DNA from: Candidatus Limnocylindrales bacterium
GTDB taxonomy: Bacteria > Chloroflexota > Limnocylindria > Limnocylindrales > CSP1-4
NCBI GenBank assembly: GCA_025450915.1
Contig: JANWLH010000119.1
Location: 1-33,740, forward strand
DNA: 33,740 nt
Direction: 5' to 3'
The notes beneath the pieces were generated by a model that was not told the origin of the DNA, did no database searches, and saw nothing but the letters and a program-made list of their open reading frames with translations. Shown here in pieces: positions 1 through 5,831 of this stretch. The position numbers and the translations under genes were made by a program. Each line of letters begins with the position of its first letter. The first letter of the stretch is position 1.

Positions 1-93
1 CAACTGACGGGAATGATCCCGAGCAAGGCGGGATCATCGACACGACGGGGTATCCTGTTGGGCCAGCCCCGAAGCGAGACTGCCGAAAGCCCG

Positions 94-1461
94 ATGACCA
101 CCCGAGATCAGGCCCGCCGTCACGCGGCCGAGGTTCGCTCCGACGCGGCCTCCCGCGGTCTGCCCCTGAGCAACCCGGTGGCGAGCCTGCCCGAACGCCT
201 GCTGACCGCCCGCGAGCGCAAGGGTGTCGACCTGTTCCGGGCAGAGCGCGACACGAAGATCCGCGCGCGCTACCTCGCGGCCCTCGAGCGCGGCGACTAC
301 CGGGAGCTGCCCGGCGCCGTCTATACGAAGGGCTTCCTGCGCAACTACGCCCTCTACCTGGGCCTCGACCCGGACGAGATCCTGCTCCAGTGGCGCCGCG
401 AGCGTGGCGAGGGGACCGCCACGGATCCAGTCCTGGTCGTGCCGCGGACCGTCACTGCTCCCCGCCAGGGGATCACGATCTCGCCAAAGGTCTTCGGTGG
501 CCTGCTCCTGGCCCTGGTGGTGGTCGTCGTGGTCGGCTACGTGGCCACCCAGCTCGTCCGCTTCTCGAAGCCGCCGACGGTGACGATGCTCGATCCGAGC
601 ACGGCCGTGGTCACGGTCGACGAGACCGCCACCACCTACACCCTGCGGGGCACGACGAGCGCCGGGGCGACCGTCTCGATCACGATCCCCGGCCGCGACC
701 AGCCCATCCAGGTGACGGCCGGCGCCGACGGCTCGTGGAGCTCGGACGTCGAGCTGCGCCGCGGCCGCAACCAGTTCAGCGTCACCGCGACCGATCCCGA
801 TACGGGCAAGCAGTCCGACACGCCCTATGCGCTCGTGATCAACGTCCCGATCTCGGCGATCGTGACGCCCAGCCTGACGATCGAACAGCCGGCCGACGGG
901 GCGAAGGTCGAGAACGGCGCGATCCTCGTCCAGGGCTCGGCGCCGAACGCGACCCAGGTCACCGTGACCGCGGCGTACACCGGTGCGACGACGCCGAGCG
1001 GCACGAGGCCCCAGCCAACCCCACCAGTTCCACCGGCCCAAACCGGGACGGTCGGCAGCGACGGGGCGTTCAGCGTGCCGTTCAACCTGACCGCCGGCAG
1101 GTGGACCCTCACGGTCTCGGCCGCCGGCAGCGACGGGAAGGCAACCTCGCTGACCCGCTCGGTCACCGTCAACTACCAGGGCGTCAACCTGGTCGTCTCG
1201 ATCCGGGGCGGCTCCGCCTGGCTGCTCGTCTGGGAGGACGGGGTCATCGACAAGAAGATCGGCGCCGGCGGCAAGACCGAGAAGAACGGGACGGTGCTGA
1301 CGTTCACCGCCACGAACACGATCGAGGTCCGGACGGGCAAGTCGAGCATCACGTTCTTCACGCTGAACGGCCAGTCGCTCGGTTCGCTCGGTGCCGCCGC
1401 CAACCCGGAGACGTGGCTGTTCGACCCGCCCGCCCCGCCGAAGAAGACCAACCATACGTGA
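94..1461 (+). CDS. RodZ-like helix-turn-helix membrane protein (HTH_25, TM, DUF4115)
   Basis: Probable cytoskeleton-associated or envelope protein of the RodZ type. A cytoplasmic Xre-like helix-turn-helix near the N-terminus (TARERKGVDL... then TKIRARYLAALERGDY and YTKGFLRNYALYLGL) is followed by one transmembrane helix at nt ~490-550 (Val-rich). Then come two Ig/glucodextranase-B-like repeats with a Pro/Thr linker and a C-terminal DUF4115-type beta domain (SAWLLVWEDGVIDKKIGAGG). RodZ proteins link MreB to the cell-wall elongation machinery. The internal Ig-like repeats make this one longer than the Proteobacterial form. I chose ATG 94; the frame is open to the window edge with another ATG at 13, so the true start could lie further upstream. 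It overlaps the next gene by GTGA, suggesting an operon with cinA and murC. Confidence 0.8.
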   Translation: MTTRDQARRHAAEVRSDAASRGLPLSNPVASLPERLLTARERKGVDLFRAERDTKIRARYLAALERGDYRELPGAVYTKGFLRNYALYLGLDPDEILLQWRRERGEGTATDPVLVVPRTVTAPRQGITISPKVFGGLLLALVVVVVVGYVATQLVRFSKPPTVTMLDPSTAVVTVDETATTYTLRGTTSAGATVSITIPGRDQPIQVTAGADGSWSSDVELRRGRNQFSVTATDPDTGKQSDTPYALVINVPISAIVTPSLTIEQPADGAKVENGAILVQGSAPNATQVTVTAAYTGATTPSGTRPQPTPPVPPAQTGTVGSDGAFSVPFNLTAGRWTLTVSAAGSDGKATSLTRSVTVNYQGVNLVVSIRGGSAWLLVWEDGVIDKKIGAGGKTEKNGTVLTFTATNTIEVRTGKSSITFFTLNGQSLGSLGAAANPETWLFDPPAPPKKTNHT

Positions 1462-1967
1462 CCGAGGGCGACCCCGAGGTCGACCTCCACGACCTTGCTG
1501 AGCGGCTCCAGGCCATCGCCCTGGCCAGCGGCATGACGGTCGCCACGGCGGAATCGTGTACCGGCGGCCTCGTCGCGCACGCGCTGACCGAGATCGCCGG
1601 CTCGAGCGGCTATTTCCTGGGTGGGGTGGTCGCCTACGCCGACGCGACGAAGCAGCACGCGCTCGGCGTGCCCGCGGAGCTGATCGCCCGGCACGGCGCC
1701 GTCAGCGCCCAGGTCGCCCGGGCGATGGCCGCGGGAGCACGCCGGGTGATCGGCTCGGACCTGGCCGTCTCGGTCACGGGCATCGCCGGCCCGGGCGGCG
1801 GTACCGCCGCCAAGCCGGTCGGCCTGACGTATATCGCCGTCGAGGGCCCCGCGGGCAGCGAGGTGCGCCGGTTCGTCTGGCCCCACGATCGATCCGCCAA
1901 CAAGCGCGCGAGCGCGGCAGCCGCAATCGAGCTGCTGATCTCCGTGGCCAGCCCCGGCCCGGCGTGA
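1458..1967 (+). CDS. pncC: CinA C-terminal / PncC-type nicotinamide-nucleotide amidase
   Basis: 169-aa stand-alone CinA C-terminal domain. Family members deamidate nicotinamide mononucleotide to nicotinic acid mononucleotide in pyridine-nucleotide salvage. The family signatures are all visible: the active-site AESCTGGLVAHAL segment, SSGYFLGGVVAYADATK, and VTGIAGPGGGTAAKPVG. The N-terminal MoeA-like half found in full CinA is absent, and the length fits the single-domain form. The GTG start overlaps the upstream stop codon (GTGA), so translation is probably coupled to the RodZ-like gene. A rodZ-like/cinA pairing is common in Gram-positive and Chloroflexota genomes (established pattern; the order here is seen directly). 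Confidence 0.9.
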   Translation: MTEGDPEVDLHDLAERLQAIALASGMTVATAESCTGGLVAHALTEIAGSSGYFLGGVVAYADATKQHALGVPAELIARHGAVSAQVARAMAAGARRVIGSDLAVSVTGIAGPGGGTAAKPVGLTYIAVEGPAGSEVRRFVWPHDRSANKRASAAAAIELLISVASPGPA

Positions 1968-1991: not shown

Positions 1992-3572
1992 ATGACCCGG
2001 ACCAGCGAGGAGATCGGGCGCGGCCTGGAGCCGTCCCGGGAGGCGCGGCCCATCGTGGCGGGGGAGCGGATCCACGTGATCGGTGCGGCCGGCAGTGCCG
2101 CCGCGGCATCGCTGCTGCTGGGCCATGCGGCCGGCGCCCGGATGTCCGGGTGCGATGCCGGCGAGCCATCCGCCTACAGCCTGGGCGTCGAGGCCGCCGG
2201 GATCCCGATCACCTGGCACCACTCCGCCCGCCACGTGGTCGATGCGGATGGGCGCCCCGCGGTGGATCGGATCGCCGTGAGCAAAGCCCTGACCTCGGTC
2301 AACCCCGACCACCCGGAGCTCCTCGCCGCCCATGCCGCCGGGATACCCGCCACGAGCTGCCAGCAGCTCATCGCGGATGCCGCGGCGACGTTCGGCGGGA
2401 CGCTGCTTGCCGTCGCCGGGACGCATGGCAAGTCGACGACGACCGGCTGGCTCGTCCACCTGCTCAGCCGCGCGGGCCACGATCCGTCGGCCTTCGTCGG
2501 AGCCCTCCTGCCGGCCGAACTCGCGGGCGGCGATGCGCCGGCGGTCGTGCGGATCGGCCACGGCGGCCCGGCCGGCCGGTCGTTCGTCGTCGAGGCCGAC
2601 GAGTACGCCGGCAACTTCGATCCCTACCGGCCGGCGATCGGGGTGCTGCTGAACGCTGACTGGGACCATCCCGACGTCTTCCCTGATCGAGCGGCGGTCG
2701 TCGACACGTTCGAGGCCTGGATTCGCTGCTTTCCCGCGGGCTCGACGCTGGTGGCGAATGCCGGTGACGCCGGCGTGGCCACGCTCCTGCCAAGACTCGC
2801 TGATTGGCCGGGGTGGATCCTCGCGACGGCCCTCGGGTCGGACGGTGCCGACCCCGCGAACCTTGCCGCCGAGCTGCGGGCAGGGATCCGCTCGGCAGCC
2901 GGTCCCGCCGCGGCGCTGACCGCCACGTACCACGCCGCCGCGAACGGTGAGGCGCATCTCGTCGTCTTCGGCCTCGGCTCCGAGGGGACGAGGAAGGTCG
3001 ACCTCCAGCTCGTGGGGCGGCACAACGCCGCGAACGCGCTCGGGGCTGCCGGGGCCGCGCTGGCGTTTGGCCTGGAGCCGGCGGCGATCGCCGAGGGGCT
3101 CGCCTCGTTCGAGGGCGTCGGGCGGCGGTTCGAGCTGAAAGGGGAGGTCGGCGGGATCGTCGTGCTCGACGACTACGGCCACCATCCGACCGCCATCGCC
3201 GCGACCCTCGGGGCGGTGAAGCTGCGCTATCCGGGCCGGCGCCGCTGGGCGATCTACGAGCCGCTGACATTCCACCGGACCGCGGCCCTGCTCGAGCAGT
3301 TCGCGGAGATCCTGGCCACCGCCGATCGAGTGGCGATCGCCGACATCTTCGCGGTCCGCGATCCCGACCGGACGATCGTGTCGGCCGCCGACCTCGCCCG
3401 GGCCGTCGAGCGCCGGGGAACGCCGGCGATCGCCCCGGGCTCCGTGGAAGCGACCGCCGACGCGGTCCTGCCCCTCCTCGAGCCCGGTGACGTGGTGCTG
3501 GTCATGGGCGGCGGCCGCTCGACCGTGATCGCCGAACGGCTCGTTGGCGGACTCCGGGGGATGAGCGCCTGA
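1992..3572 (+). CDS. murC: Mur ligase, MurC-type (UDP-N-acetylmuramate--L-alanine ligase)
   Basis: 526-aa ATP-dependent amino-acid ligase of the MurC/Mpl branch, expected to add L-Ala to UDP-MurNAc in the cytoplasmic stage of peptidoglycan synthesis. Order seen: N-terminal Rossmann domain (IHVIGAAGSAAAASLLLG), P-loop GTHGKSTTT at residues ~143-151, the central motif EADEYAGNFDPYRP..LNADWDHPDVF, HNAANALGAAGAAL, and the MurC hallmark DDYGHHPTAIAATL at the start of the C-terminal domain. It is longer than E. coli MurC (about 490 aa), with an extra N-terminal stretch. Mpl (murein tripeptide ligase) is the main alternative, because the EADEY-F-Y-P motif is shared. It lies 24 bp after the cinA-like gene and ends 3 bp from the convergent Rieske gene. 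Confidence 0.8.
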   Translation: MTRTSEEIGRGLEPSREARPIVAGERIHVIGAAGSAAAASLLLGHAAGARMSGCDAGEPSAYSLGVEAAGIPITWHHSARHVVDADGRPAVDRIAVSKALTSVNPDHPELLAAHAAGIPATSCQQLIADAAATFGGTLLAVAGTHGKSTTTGWLVHLLSRAGHDPSAFVGALLPAELAGGDAPAVVRIGHGGPAGRSFVVEADEYAGNFDPYRPAIGVLLNADWDHPDVFPDRAAVVDTFEAWIRCFPAGSTLVANAGDAGVATLLPRLADWPGWILATALGSDGADPANLAAELRAGIRSAAGPAAALTATYHAAANGEAHLVVFGLGSEGTRKVDLQLVGRHNAANALGAAGAALAFGLEPAAIAEGLASFEGVGRRFELKGEVGGIVVLDDYGHHPTAIAATLGAVKLRYPGRRRWAIYEPLTFHRTAALLEQFAEILATADRVAIADIFAVRDPDRTIVSAADLARAVERRGTPAIAPGSVEATADAVLPLLEPGDVVLVMGGGRSTVIAERLVGGLRGMSA

Positions 3573-3575
3573 GGC

Positions 3576-5273
3576 TCAGTCCGAAGCTGCGCCCGCGGCG
3601 ACCGTTGCGCCGGCGCTTGCCGCTGCCGCTTCGAGGGCAGCCAGCTCCTCCGGAGTGAGGAGCCGGGCCGCGATCTCGTGGCCCTCCGACGTGAGGCATC
3701 GGCCGGTGGCGAGCTCGTACTGCCAGCCGTGGAGCGAGCAGGTCAGGACGCCCTCGTCGTCGATCGTCGCGAAGCGGGTCAGGTCGGCCTTCATGTGCGG
3801 ACAGCGCCGCTGGATCTCCCAGCCGTCAAGCACGAACGACCCTTCGGCCTTTGCCTTCTCGGCGTAGAAGCCCTCGGCGTACTGGAGCCGCTCGAGGTCG
3901 AGGCACTTGAACCAGGTGTACACGTACTCGTTGTAGGGACCCTTGCGGGCAGCCCGGAAGCGCATCGACAGGAAGAGCGAGTTGACCCAGTCGACCTCGT
4001 GCTCGCGGACGAGCACCTCGATCAGCGGCCGGTCGATCCGGAAGACGTAGCGCGGCGTTTCGACGCCATCCCACGGCCGGACGAGCTGGTCCACGAAATC
4101 GAGGACGATCCCCGGCGGCTGGCCAGCCGGGATCGCCGCCAGCCCCTGCGGGCCGCGCAGGTCGAGCAGCACCGGCGCCCCGATCCCGCTGCAGGTGAGC
4201 TCGCCGAAGCCCATCAAGGGCTCGAACCAGGCCTTCAGCTCGGCAACCAGGTCGAGCGGCTCGATCGGCTCGGGAGGTTCCGGCGCGCCGGCTTCGGGCA
4301 ATGGCGACCCGCCGCGGGCCCAGCGCGCGTGCTCCGCATCGAGCAGCGGCCGGACCCGGGCCTGGTAGTCGCGCAGGTAGGGCTCGCGTTCATCGAAGAT
4401 CCGGCGGACCTCGGCGTCGGCAACGGGGTGCGTGACGTCGAACGAGCCACGGCGGAGCTCGCCCGACGAACCGGGCAGCATCAGCCGCCCGCCGCTGATC
4501 CCGGCCTCGGACAGGTGGTCGAGGAAGACCTCCTGGTCCGGGAAGATGTTGGCCGGGTCGCGGTGGAGGTCGTTGTACGCGAAGAGGTCATCGTCGAGGA
4601 AGCACGGCGGTCCGGCGCTGGGCACGACGAACGCCGGATCGATGATCTCGATGTAGCGCTGGGCCCGGGCGAGCTGGACGACCCGCTTCTTGTGGGCGAG
4701 GGTGATCTTTGCCCGTTCCGGGAACTCGTAGACCATCGGGTACCAGATCGCCCCCGAGAACTGGAGGAACAGCAGGTCGATCGGCCCCAGTGCCAGCAGC
4801 TTGTCGGGGTCGGGCGGCCGCGAGTCGTTCATGTTCAGCAGGCGCGTCTCACCGTCGTCGACGAGCAGCGCCGAGTCGCCGATCGGGCCGTCGGTGGGTG
4901 CCGTGAGCGCCTCGATCATCACCCGCAGCCCGCCGGCCAGCTCGATCGGCTCGCCGTCGGCGGTCTCGACGAAGCGTCGGAACCCGAGCGCGTGGAGCTC
5001 GTGGCGGAGGTCGTCGATCAGGTAGTCGGGCAGCAGGACCGTGGCGTCCTTCGACACGTTGGCACTCAGCCAGGCCGGATCGAAGTGATCGTGATGGAGG
5101 TGCGAGATGTACAGGTACGTCGGCCTGGCGAGGAGCGCGGGATCGATGCCGTCGTTGGCCGGAAACGGGAACCAGGAGCCGAAGTAGGCGGGGCTGAACC
5201 AGGGATCGCAGAGGATGCTGCCGGCCCGGGTCTCGATGAACAGCCCGGCCTGGCCAAGGAAGGTGACGCGCAT
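3576..5273 (-). CDS. Metallo-beta-lactamase/Rieske protein, NamH/CMAH type (candidate UDP-MurNAc hydroxylase)
   Basis: 565-aa two-domain protein. The N-terminal metallo-beta-lactamase fold has an intact metal motif S57-HLHHDH-63 preceded by GSILCDPWFSPAYFGSWFPFP. The middle carries LQFSGAIWYPMVYE and PSAGPPCFLDDD. The C-terminal Rieske centre is C491-P-H493 and C512-S-L-H515. This architecture is that of CMP-NeuAc hydroxylase and of mycobacterial NamH, which oxidises the N-acetyl group of UDP-MurNAc to N-glycolyl. I recognise the NamH-like stretches from memory, without alignment. The convergent neighbour is a MurC-type ligase, which uses the same substrate. The ATG at 5273 is preferred over one 51 bp upstream: it begins the fold directly (MRVTFLGQAG) and has a TATCCT box six bases before it, suggesting a leaderless mRNA. 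The cellular substrate is inferred. Confidence 0.72.
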   Translation of the reverse strand: MRVTFLGQAGLFIETRAGSILCDPWFSPAYFGSWFPFPANDGIDPALLARPTYLYISHLHHDHFDPAWLSANVSKDATVLLPDYLIDDLRHELHALGFRRFVETADGEPIELAGGLRVMIEALTAPTDGPIGDSALLVDDGETRLLNMNDSRPPDPDKLLALGPIDLLFLQFSGAIWYPMVYEFPERAKITLAHKKRVVQLARAQRYIEIIDPAFVVPSAGPPCFLDDDLFAYNDLHRDPANIFPDQEVFLDHLSEAGISGGRLMLPGSSGELRRGSFDVTHPVADAEVRRIFDEREPYLRDYQARVRPLLDAEHARWARGGSPLPEAGAPEPPEPIEPLDLVAELKAWFEPLMGFGELTCSGIGAPVLLDLRGPQGLAAIPAGQPPGIVLDFVDQLVRPWDGVETPRYVFRIDRPLIEVLVREHEVDWVNSLFLSMRFRAARKGPYNEYVYTWFKCLDLERLQYAEGFYAEKAKAEGSFVLDGWEIQRRCPHMKADLTRFATIDDEGVLTCSLHGWQYELATGRCLTSEGHEIAARLLTPEELAALEAAAASAGATVAAGAASD

Positions 5274-5285: not shown

Positions 5286-5339
5286 CCGGAGCGGGTACCA
5301 TTGGCGGCCGATCCCCCTCGACACTCACGGAGCGTGCTC

Positions 5340-5831
5340 ATGGCCGGTGACGTCTCGTTCGATGTGGTCAGCGATTTCGACGAGCAGGAGCTTCGGAACG
5401 CCCTCGACCAGGTCCGACGCGAGGTCCAGCAGCGATTCGACTTCAAGGGTGCCAAGGTCGACCTCGAGCAGGAGAAGACCGAGGTCATCCTGCTGACCGA
5501 TGATGAGTTCCGGGCAAAGGTCGTCAAGGACCTCATCGAATCGAAGGCCGTCCGGCGCAACCTGAGCCTCAAGATCTTCGACTGGGGCAAGGTCGAGCCG
5601 GCCGGCGGGAACACGGTCAAGCAGGTCATCACGCTCCGCCGGGGCCTCGCCGACGACACCGCCAAGAAGCTGACCAAGCTGATCCGGGACGAGTTCCCGA
5701 AGGTGAAGTCGCAGATCCAGGGCGACGCGATCCGCGTTTCGGGCAAGAACAAGGATGACCTCCAGCGGGTGATCGCCCGACTGCGCGACCTCGACATCGA
5801 GGTCCCCCTCCAGTTCCAGAACTACCGCTAG
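5340..5831 (+). CDS. yajQ: YajQ family nucleotide-binding protein
   Basis: 163-aa UPF0234/YajQ protein. Recognised throughout by SFDVVSDFDEQELRNALDQ, RFDFKGAK near residue 36, FDWGKVEPAGG, and the C-terminal SGKNKDDLQRVI..LRDLDIEVPLQF. The family has two ferredoxin-like RRM-type folds. It binds nucleotides or RNA, and in Xanthomonas binds cyclic di-GMP. Start: the ATG at 5340 has GGAG eight bases upstream; an in-frame GTG lies six bases earlier. It diverges from the Rieske gene across 66 bp and is followed after seven bases by a thiamine-diphosphate enzyme, probably on the same transcript. Confidence 0.93.
   Translation: MAGDVSFDVVSDFDEQELRNALDQVRREVQQRFDFKGAKVDLEQEKTEVILLTDDEFRAKVVKDLIESKAVRRNLSLKIFDWGKVEPAGGNTVKQVITLRRGLADDTAKKLTKLIRDEFPKVKSQIQGDAIRVSGKNKDDLQRVIARLRDLDIEVPLQFQNYR

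Follow-up and report, generated by a model that had tools for sequence, protein, structure and literature searches.

N-Glycolylmuramic acid is usually presented as a trait of mycobacteria and related genera. The window analysed here, a stretch of 33,740 nucleotides from a Candidatus Limnocylindrales bacterium (Chloroflexota; contig JANWLH010000119.1), carries a gene whose product resembles the mycobacterial hydroxylase NamH, lying next to the gene for a MurC-type ligase. This raises the question of whether a lineage of Chloroflexota also makes N-glycolylated peptidoglycan and, if so, whether NamH would act there ahead of MurC. The reading that we favour, with a probability of about 0.82, is that a NamH orthologue makes UDP-N-glycolylmuramic acid (UDP-MurNGlyc) from UDP-N-acetylmuramic acid (UDP-MurNAc) for the convergent MurC, the wall being at least partly N-glycolylated.

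The protein beside MurC belongs to the NamH family

The gene pair comprises the following features, residues being numbered on the 582-residue open reading frame of namH.

3576 to 5273, minus strand: namH orthologue, predicted UDP-MurNAc N-acetyl hydroxylase (PF25451, 50-52% identity, tree, AlphaFold model, fold matches)
4455 to 5273, minus strand: metallo-beta-lactamase (MBL)-fold domain, approximate limits (weak PF12706 and PF13483 matches; fold search)
5085 to 5102, minus strand: HLHHDH metal-binding motif (HxHxDH), residues 75-80
3858 to 4250, minus strand: SCP2-like domain of the Rv3818 type (PF25451 over the full profile length, residues 359-489)
3687 to 3812, minus strand: Rieske [2Fe-2S] domain (PF00355, residues 505-546, over the curated cut-off)
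3795 to 3803, minus strand: Rieske ligand motif CPH (Cys-x-His), residues 508-510, invariant in the alignment
3729 to 3740, minus strand: Rieske ligand motif CSLH (Cys-x2-His), residues 529-532, Cys and His invariant
3573 to 3575, no strand: murC-namH intergenic gap, 3 bp between the converging stop codons (sequence and reading-frame coordinates)
1992 to 3572, plus strand: MurC (UDP-N-acetylmuramate--L-alanine ligase), 526 residues (TIGR01082, 268.7 bits; nearest structures; motifs)

The family assignment was supported first by the domain content. The protein matched PF25451 (SCP2_Rv3818) over the full profile and above the cut-off, with an E-value of 7e-43; Pfam named this domain after Rv3818, the namH homologue of Mycobacterium tuberculosis (PMC3605390). 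In HxHxDH, every fixed residue (three His, one Asp) was invariant in 34 of 34 homologues from several phyla, as were the C-x-H and C-x2-H ligands of the Rieske cluster, and invariant columns spanned all domains across phyla. In the multiple alignment the window protein was 50-52% identical over its full length to NamH of Nocardia, Rhodococcus and Tsukamurella, and a tblastn search of plasmids returned full-length homologues at 46-49% identity in the same three genera.

This was examined further with a maximum-likelihood tree of 81 sequences, which held no verified Rv3818 sequence. The window protein and that of a genus mate grouped with 100/100 support, the clade of the order was likewise supported at 100/100, and this clade was nested in a family with Mycobacteriaceae, Nocardiaceae, Micromonosporaceae and Glycomycetaceae. 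Divergent MBL-Rieske relatives from loci L066 and L073 formed a distant outgroup on very long branches. By sequence, the window protein is thus an apparent orthologue of mycobacterial namH (Rv3818).

An AlphaFold2 model built from a 34-row alignment reached a mean predicted local distance difference test score of 89.5 and a predicted template modelling (TM) score of 0.85. Its best matches in the PDB were CmlA, a diiron beta-hydroxylase, and FrsH, with MBL-fold hydrolases mixed in and after them; the CmlA and FrsH matches covered the MBL part only (TM-score 0.32-0.38, about 320 columns). The model would therefore suit an O2-activating hydroxylase no less than a hydrolase. A sequence search of the PDB with the window protein matched no solved structure.

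These results bear out what the first-pass annotation had read in the protein. The MBL fold that it proposed agrees with the invariant N-terminal HxHxDH motif and with the matches of the model; the three NamH-like blocks that it picked out are all present and rich in family-invariant columns; and the Rieske ligand set is indeed complete, in a domain that passes the PF00355 cut-off. It had also named phylogeny as a check, and the tree places the protein inside the NamH family, not with other MBL-Rieske proteins.

The namH reading frame is open from 5324 to 3576 on the minus strand (582 residues from a GTG); homologues support an ATG start at 5273, the coordinate given by the first-pass annotation, and the stop is at 3576. 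Against genus mates, the ratio of nonsynonymous to synonymous substitution rates (dN/dS) was about 0.08-0.17 (0.038/0.453, 0.072/0.575 and 0.092/0.534), and NamH is under purifying selection within the genus. A pseudogene was ruled out by the intact frame and this low ratio, and a chance reading frame by the same ratio together with full-length homologues at 48-85% identity.

More distant or damaged relatives were also seen. Other families of Chloroflexota hold a divergent full-length NamH-like subfamily (L066 8259-9848, L073 8757-10355, L074 7428-9026), in which the MBL and Rieske motifs are mostly kept and PF25451 scores are weak. Plasmids of the haloarchaea Halobaculum and Halolamina, for example NZ_CP119990.1 (L121 3995-5428), encode relatives of the N-terminal half of NamH, the L121 protein being free of Rieske motifs; since these archaea have no murein, the relatives must have a different role. 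On a Microbacterium plasmid (NZ_CP072877.1, L120 4040-5797) the NamH copy is divided among three annotated frames, either because it is broken or through sequencing error. Finally, a NamH on a contig of a metagenome-assembled genome (MAG) labelled Acidobacteria (L172 5866-7566) fell inside Mycobacteriaceae and had mycobacterial neighbour families, so that contamination or a mislabelled bin is the probable explanation.

The neighbouring ligase is a divergent MurC

The ligase scored 268.7 bits with the murC model TIGR01082, as against 158 with mpl and less than 130 with the remaining Mur ligase models, which ruled out Mpl or another ligase. The solved structures closest to it in sequence are MurC, and it keeps the P-loop GTHGKST and the HHPT motif. 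Its score is below the curated cut-off of TIGR01082 (335.1 bits). However, MurC stayed below this cut-off throughout the order, in all 121 genomes searched, with or without NamH; the low score is therefore explained by a MurC that is divergent across the whole order, not by a different enzyme in the window. In sampled genomes of other families of the class, TIGR01082 scores were mostly far better.

The window gene is the single MurC found in its genome, although a second copy is possible in an assembly that is 69.6% complete. The search for other Mur-type ligases gave MurF, MurD and a partial MurE, together with FolC, a MurT-like protein and two proteins resembling cyanophycin synthetase. The MurT-like protein (L070 1757-3232, G000:C98) scored 200.9 bits with NF045635, below the cut-off of that model, which suggests that the wall may undergo D-isoglutamate amidation as well. 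The two proteins of cyanophycin synthetase type are L068 16475-18247 and L069 587-3493 (G000:C56 and C103); one is full length (1133 bits), and the match of the other is limited to the C-terminal half of the model.

MurC and NamH stay together within the order

True NamH was found in 29 of the 126 genomes of the order, namely in 16 of 19 in family f2, whose genomes are about 1.1 Mb, and in 13 of 107 in family f1. MurC lay directly 3' of NamH, in convergent orientation, in 26 of the 28 NamH-positive genomes in which this could be tested (G058 was not counted among them). In the two exceptions, MurC was elsewhere (G394) or almost 3 kb were read past NamH without MurC (G468).

In the window, the pair is flanked by three genes that recur around it.

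13 to 1461, plus strand: RodZ-like protein with helix-turn-helix and Ig domains, conserved upstream neighbour in the order (Pfam HTH_25; synteny)
1458 to 1967, plus strand: CinA C-terminal-type protein, conserved upstream neighbour (PF02464, E 1.3e-52; synteny)
5325 to 5831, plus strand: YajQ/DUF520 family protein (open frame), conserved neighbour beyond namH (PF04461 and NF003819, both above cut-off; synteny)

Three local gene orders were observed: RodZ-CinA-MurC-NamH-YajQ-TPP in the window, its genus, L237 and L127/L242; RodZ-CinA-YajQ-TPP-MurC-NamH in L048, L238, L239 and L240; and RodZ-YajQ-MurC-NamH in f2. The adjacency of MurC and NamH is therefore kept while YajQ and TPP shift. The NamH-less relatives that were read mostly retain RodZ-CinA-MurC-YajQ-TPP.

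The first-pass annotation had noted a tail-to-tail pair spaced by 3 bp, and the two stop codons do stand on either side of positions 3573-3575. Its identification of the neighbour as MurC-type holds, with TIGR01082 as best match and no other MurC found in the genome. The link that it drew to this neighbour stands, recurring across the order as counted above; a NamH beyond mycobacteria is no novelty, as N-glycolated murein is already known from several families of Actinomycetota (PMC6113628), and what is new is the phylum and the linkage to MurC.

We considered the possibility that the contig is a chimera. This was rejected as unlikely, since the contig carries RodZ-CinA-MurC-YajQ-TPP in the arrangement usual for the order; the GC content fits too, being 69.8% in the window. 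The MAG that holds it, from an uncultured bacterium, measures 2.48 Mb in 170 contigs, and its size and the GC content agree with the averages published for Ca. Limnocylindria, 2.39 Mb and 68.9% GC (PMC10608941). One MAG of the sister family f2 bears the label Candidatus Aquidulcis, a genus that NCBI assigns to Ca. Limnocylindria (Chloroflexota).

On the MurC tree, the presence of NamH required 4 changes, compared with a mean of 14.7 after shuffling, and none of 500 shuffles was as low; the carriers are f2 and early-branching lineages of f1. Because of this small number of changes, and because NamH of the order forms one clade, the simplest reading of the sequences is that NamH was ancestral in the order and later lost. 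Two copies were fragmentary (L248, G147:C102; L244, G058:C81): one is a piece with internal stops, the other piece of that genome being on a different contig, and the other aligned in two end pieces only. They are possibly decaying genes or assembly faults.

In the loci read outside the order, queried with MurB and MurC only, no murC was found beside NamH. The conjugative plasmid pYYL1.1 of Rhodococcus ruber (NZ_CP024892.1, L124 2751-5551) carries the UDP-MurNAc dehydrogenase gene murB divergent from NamH, and as this was the only such neighbour, the link to MurC appears specific to the order. On this plasmid NamH is followed by a CHAP-domain protein, and namH-murB-CHAP is possibly a mobile wall-modification module. 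In Tsukamurella and on R. ruber pmega_4, NamH is surrounded by a HAD hydrolase, an acyltransferase and serS, presumably the neighbourhood of Rv3818 in M. tuberculosis, which we take as a lead only.

NamH follows the N-glycolyl chemotype in Actinomycetota

Muramic acid has been described as N-glycolated in four families (Mycobacteriaceae, Nocardiaceae, Gordoniaceae and Micromonosporaceae) and as N-acetylated in two others (Corynebacteriaceae and Kribbellaceae), and Embleya is a published exception among Streptomycetaceae (PMC6113628). PF25451 was present in 97 of 101 genomes of Micromonosporaceae and in 117 of 151 genomes of the GTDB family that holds Mycobacterium. The listed negatives of the latter are mostly of 1.9-3.7 Mb, with three of 4.8-4.9, which would agree with most of them being Corynebacterium. 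Among Streptomycetaceae, which are mostly N-acetylated, 13 of 150 genomes were positive (see also L161 and L150). The controls Corynebacterium glutamicum, Escherichia coli and Bacillus subtilis were negative for PF25451. Presence of the NamH domain thus follows the published chemotype in Actinomycetota.

Among 400 genomes of Chloroflexota, 36 had PF25451 matches, 34 of them over the cut-off. MurC was detected at E <= 1e-30 in 35 of these 36 genomes, compared with 355 of 400 overall; the 45 in which it was unseen at this threshold include many that are small and complete. This co-occurrence goes in the expected direction and is statistically weak, because MurC is common in the phylum. Relatives of NamH also occur in Ktedonobacterales, Thermomicrobiales, Thermoleophilia, Nitriliruptorales and Sulfobacillus. 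The homologues of Sulfobacillus harzensis and of a S. acidophilus MAG (L170 and L164; Bacillota) are about 50% identical, and would predict N-glycolyl murein in Sulfobacillus.

In open-licence PubMed Central papers we found no account of N-glycolylated murein in Chloroflexota, though it may have been mentioned earlier elsewhere. The descriptions of Ktedonobacter racemifer and Dictyobacter halimunensis give the amino acids of the wall and no acyl type.

NamH would act before MurC

In the mechanism that we infer, which extends to the substrate, pathway step, metal identity, electron partners and wall chemistry, the iron site of the MBL-fold domain would activate O2 with electrons supplied by the Rieske [2Fe-2S] domain, and the substrate pocket probably owes its shape to the SCP2-like domain. 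The methyl group of the N-acetyl moiety of UDP-MurNAc would be hydroxylated with this O2, the resulting UDP-MurNGlyc would be used by the convergent MurC, and the cell would build a peptidoglycan that is at least partly N-glycolylated.

The main doubt concerns the pathway step, because Rv3818 interacted with MurF alone in a protein-interaction assay, and the authors of that study suggested UDP-MurNAc-pentapeptide as substrate (PMC3605390). A NamH-type hydroxylase acting on this compound, or on a lipid-linked precursor, would still lead to an N-glycolylated wall, with a MurC that handles no glycolyl sugar. Yet the genomic links, to MurC in this order and to murB on the Rhodococcus plasmid, both flank the UDP-MurNAc step, and murF of the window genome is on a separate contig. 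Later action is therefore unlikely.

Still less probable is that an oxygenase of the NamH family acts here on another N-acetylated substrate, such as a UDP-sugar or a precursor of a surface polysaccharide, leaving peptidoglycan N-acetylated. The homologues of Chloroflexota share only some 50% identity with their actinobacterial counterparts, and the acyl type was found for none of the carriers in this phylum, which would leave room for such a role; but the columns conserved between phyla lie in every domain, the pairing with MurC is kept, and the family tracks the chemotype in Actinomycetota. Although MBL and Rieske domains are each widespread on their own and several more Rieske proteins are encoded in the genome, an unrelated MBL-Rieske protein placed by accident beside MurC is highly improbable in view of the PF25451 match, of a tree that already contradicts it, and of an adjacency that extends to rearranged loci.

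Besides the MurF interaction, several observations weigh against UDP-MurNGlyc formation for MurC as the role of this gene. Most f1 genomes do without NamH, which is dispensable there; the link to MurC is restricted to Limnocylindrales, and could be partly an inherited position, the pair being convergent and not an operon; and the literature search found no biochemical or mass-spectrometric data for NamH of Chloroflexota.

Implications and comparison with known systems

If UDP-MurNGlyc is indeed formed for MurC, the presence of namH beside the sole murC predicts N-glycolyl wall chemistry in an order of Chloroflexota, including its streamlined freshwater family f2, and the linkage favours, on genomic grounds, a step at UDP-MurNAc. 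N-glycolylated walls are then probably more widespread than usual descriptions hold. We lean towards an old trait, and no speciality of mycobacteria and their kin, that Chloroflexota (Limnocylindria, Ktedonobacteria, Thermomicrobia and others) share with deep Actinomycetota and with some Bacillota (Sulfobacillus); in Limnocylindrales it would be coupled to an unusually divergent MurC. In mycobacteria, N-glycolylation is reported to raise resistance to beta-lactams and lysozyme (PMC10050696); effects of this kind, and on recognition by Nod2, might be expected in Limnocylindrales. The window gene also offers an enzyme source from a non-pathogen, and the prediction can be checked in cultured NamH-positive relatives.

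Three known systems resemble the window protein. CmlA and FrsH, the best fold matches of the model, are MBL-fold enzymes of natural-product pathways; they have no Rieske domain and act on amino acids bound to carrier proteins. CMP-N-acetylneuraminic acid (Neu5Ac) hydroxylase (CMAH) combines Rieske and MBL-type domains. Likened by description, it performs a similar chemistry, converting the N-acetyl into an N-glycolyl group while the sugar is in activated form (PMC6481270), and differs in its substrate, CMP-sialic acid, and in its occurrence in animals. The closest system is NamH/Rv3818 of mycobacteria and related Actinomycetota, which shares with the window protein the succession of MBL, SCP2-like and Rieske domains, a colinear full-length alignment at about 50% identity, the same invariant ligands and the same presumed pathway step. 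Unlike actinobacterial NamH, however, the window gene is found in Chloroflexota, beside murC and not beside the HAD, acyltransferase and serS genes of Tsukamurella and Rhodococcus, and its product has a longer C-terminal tail than the proteins of Nocardia and Rhodococcus.

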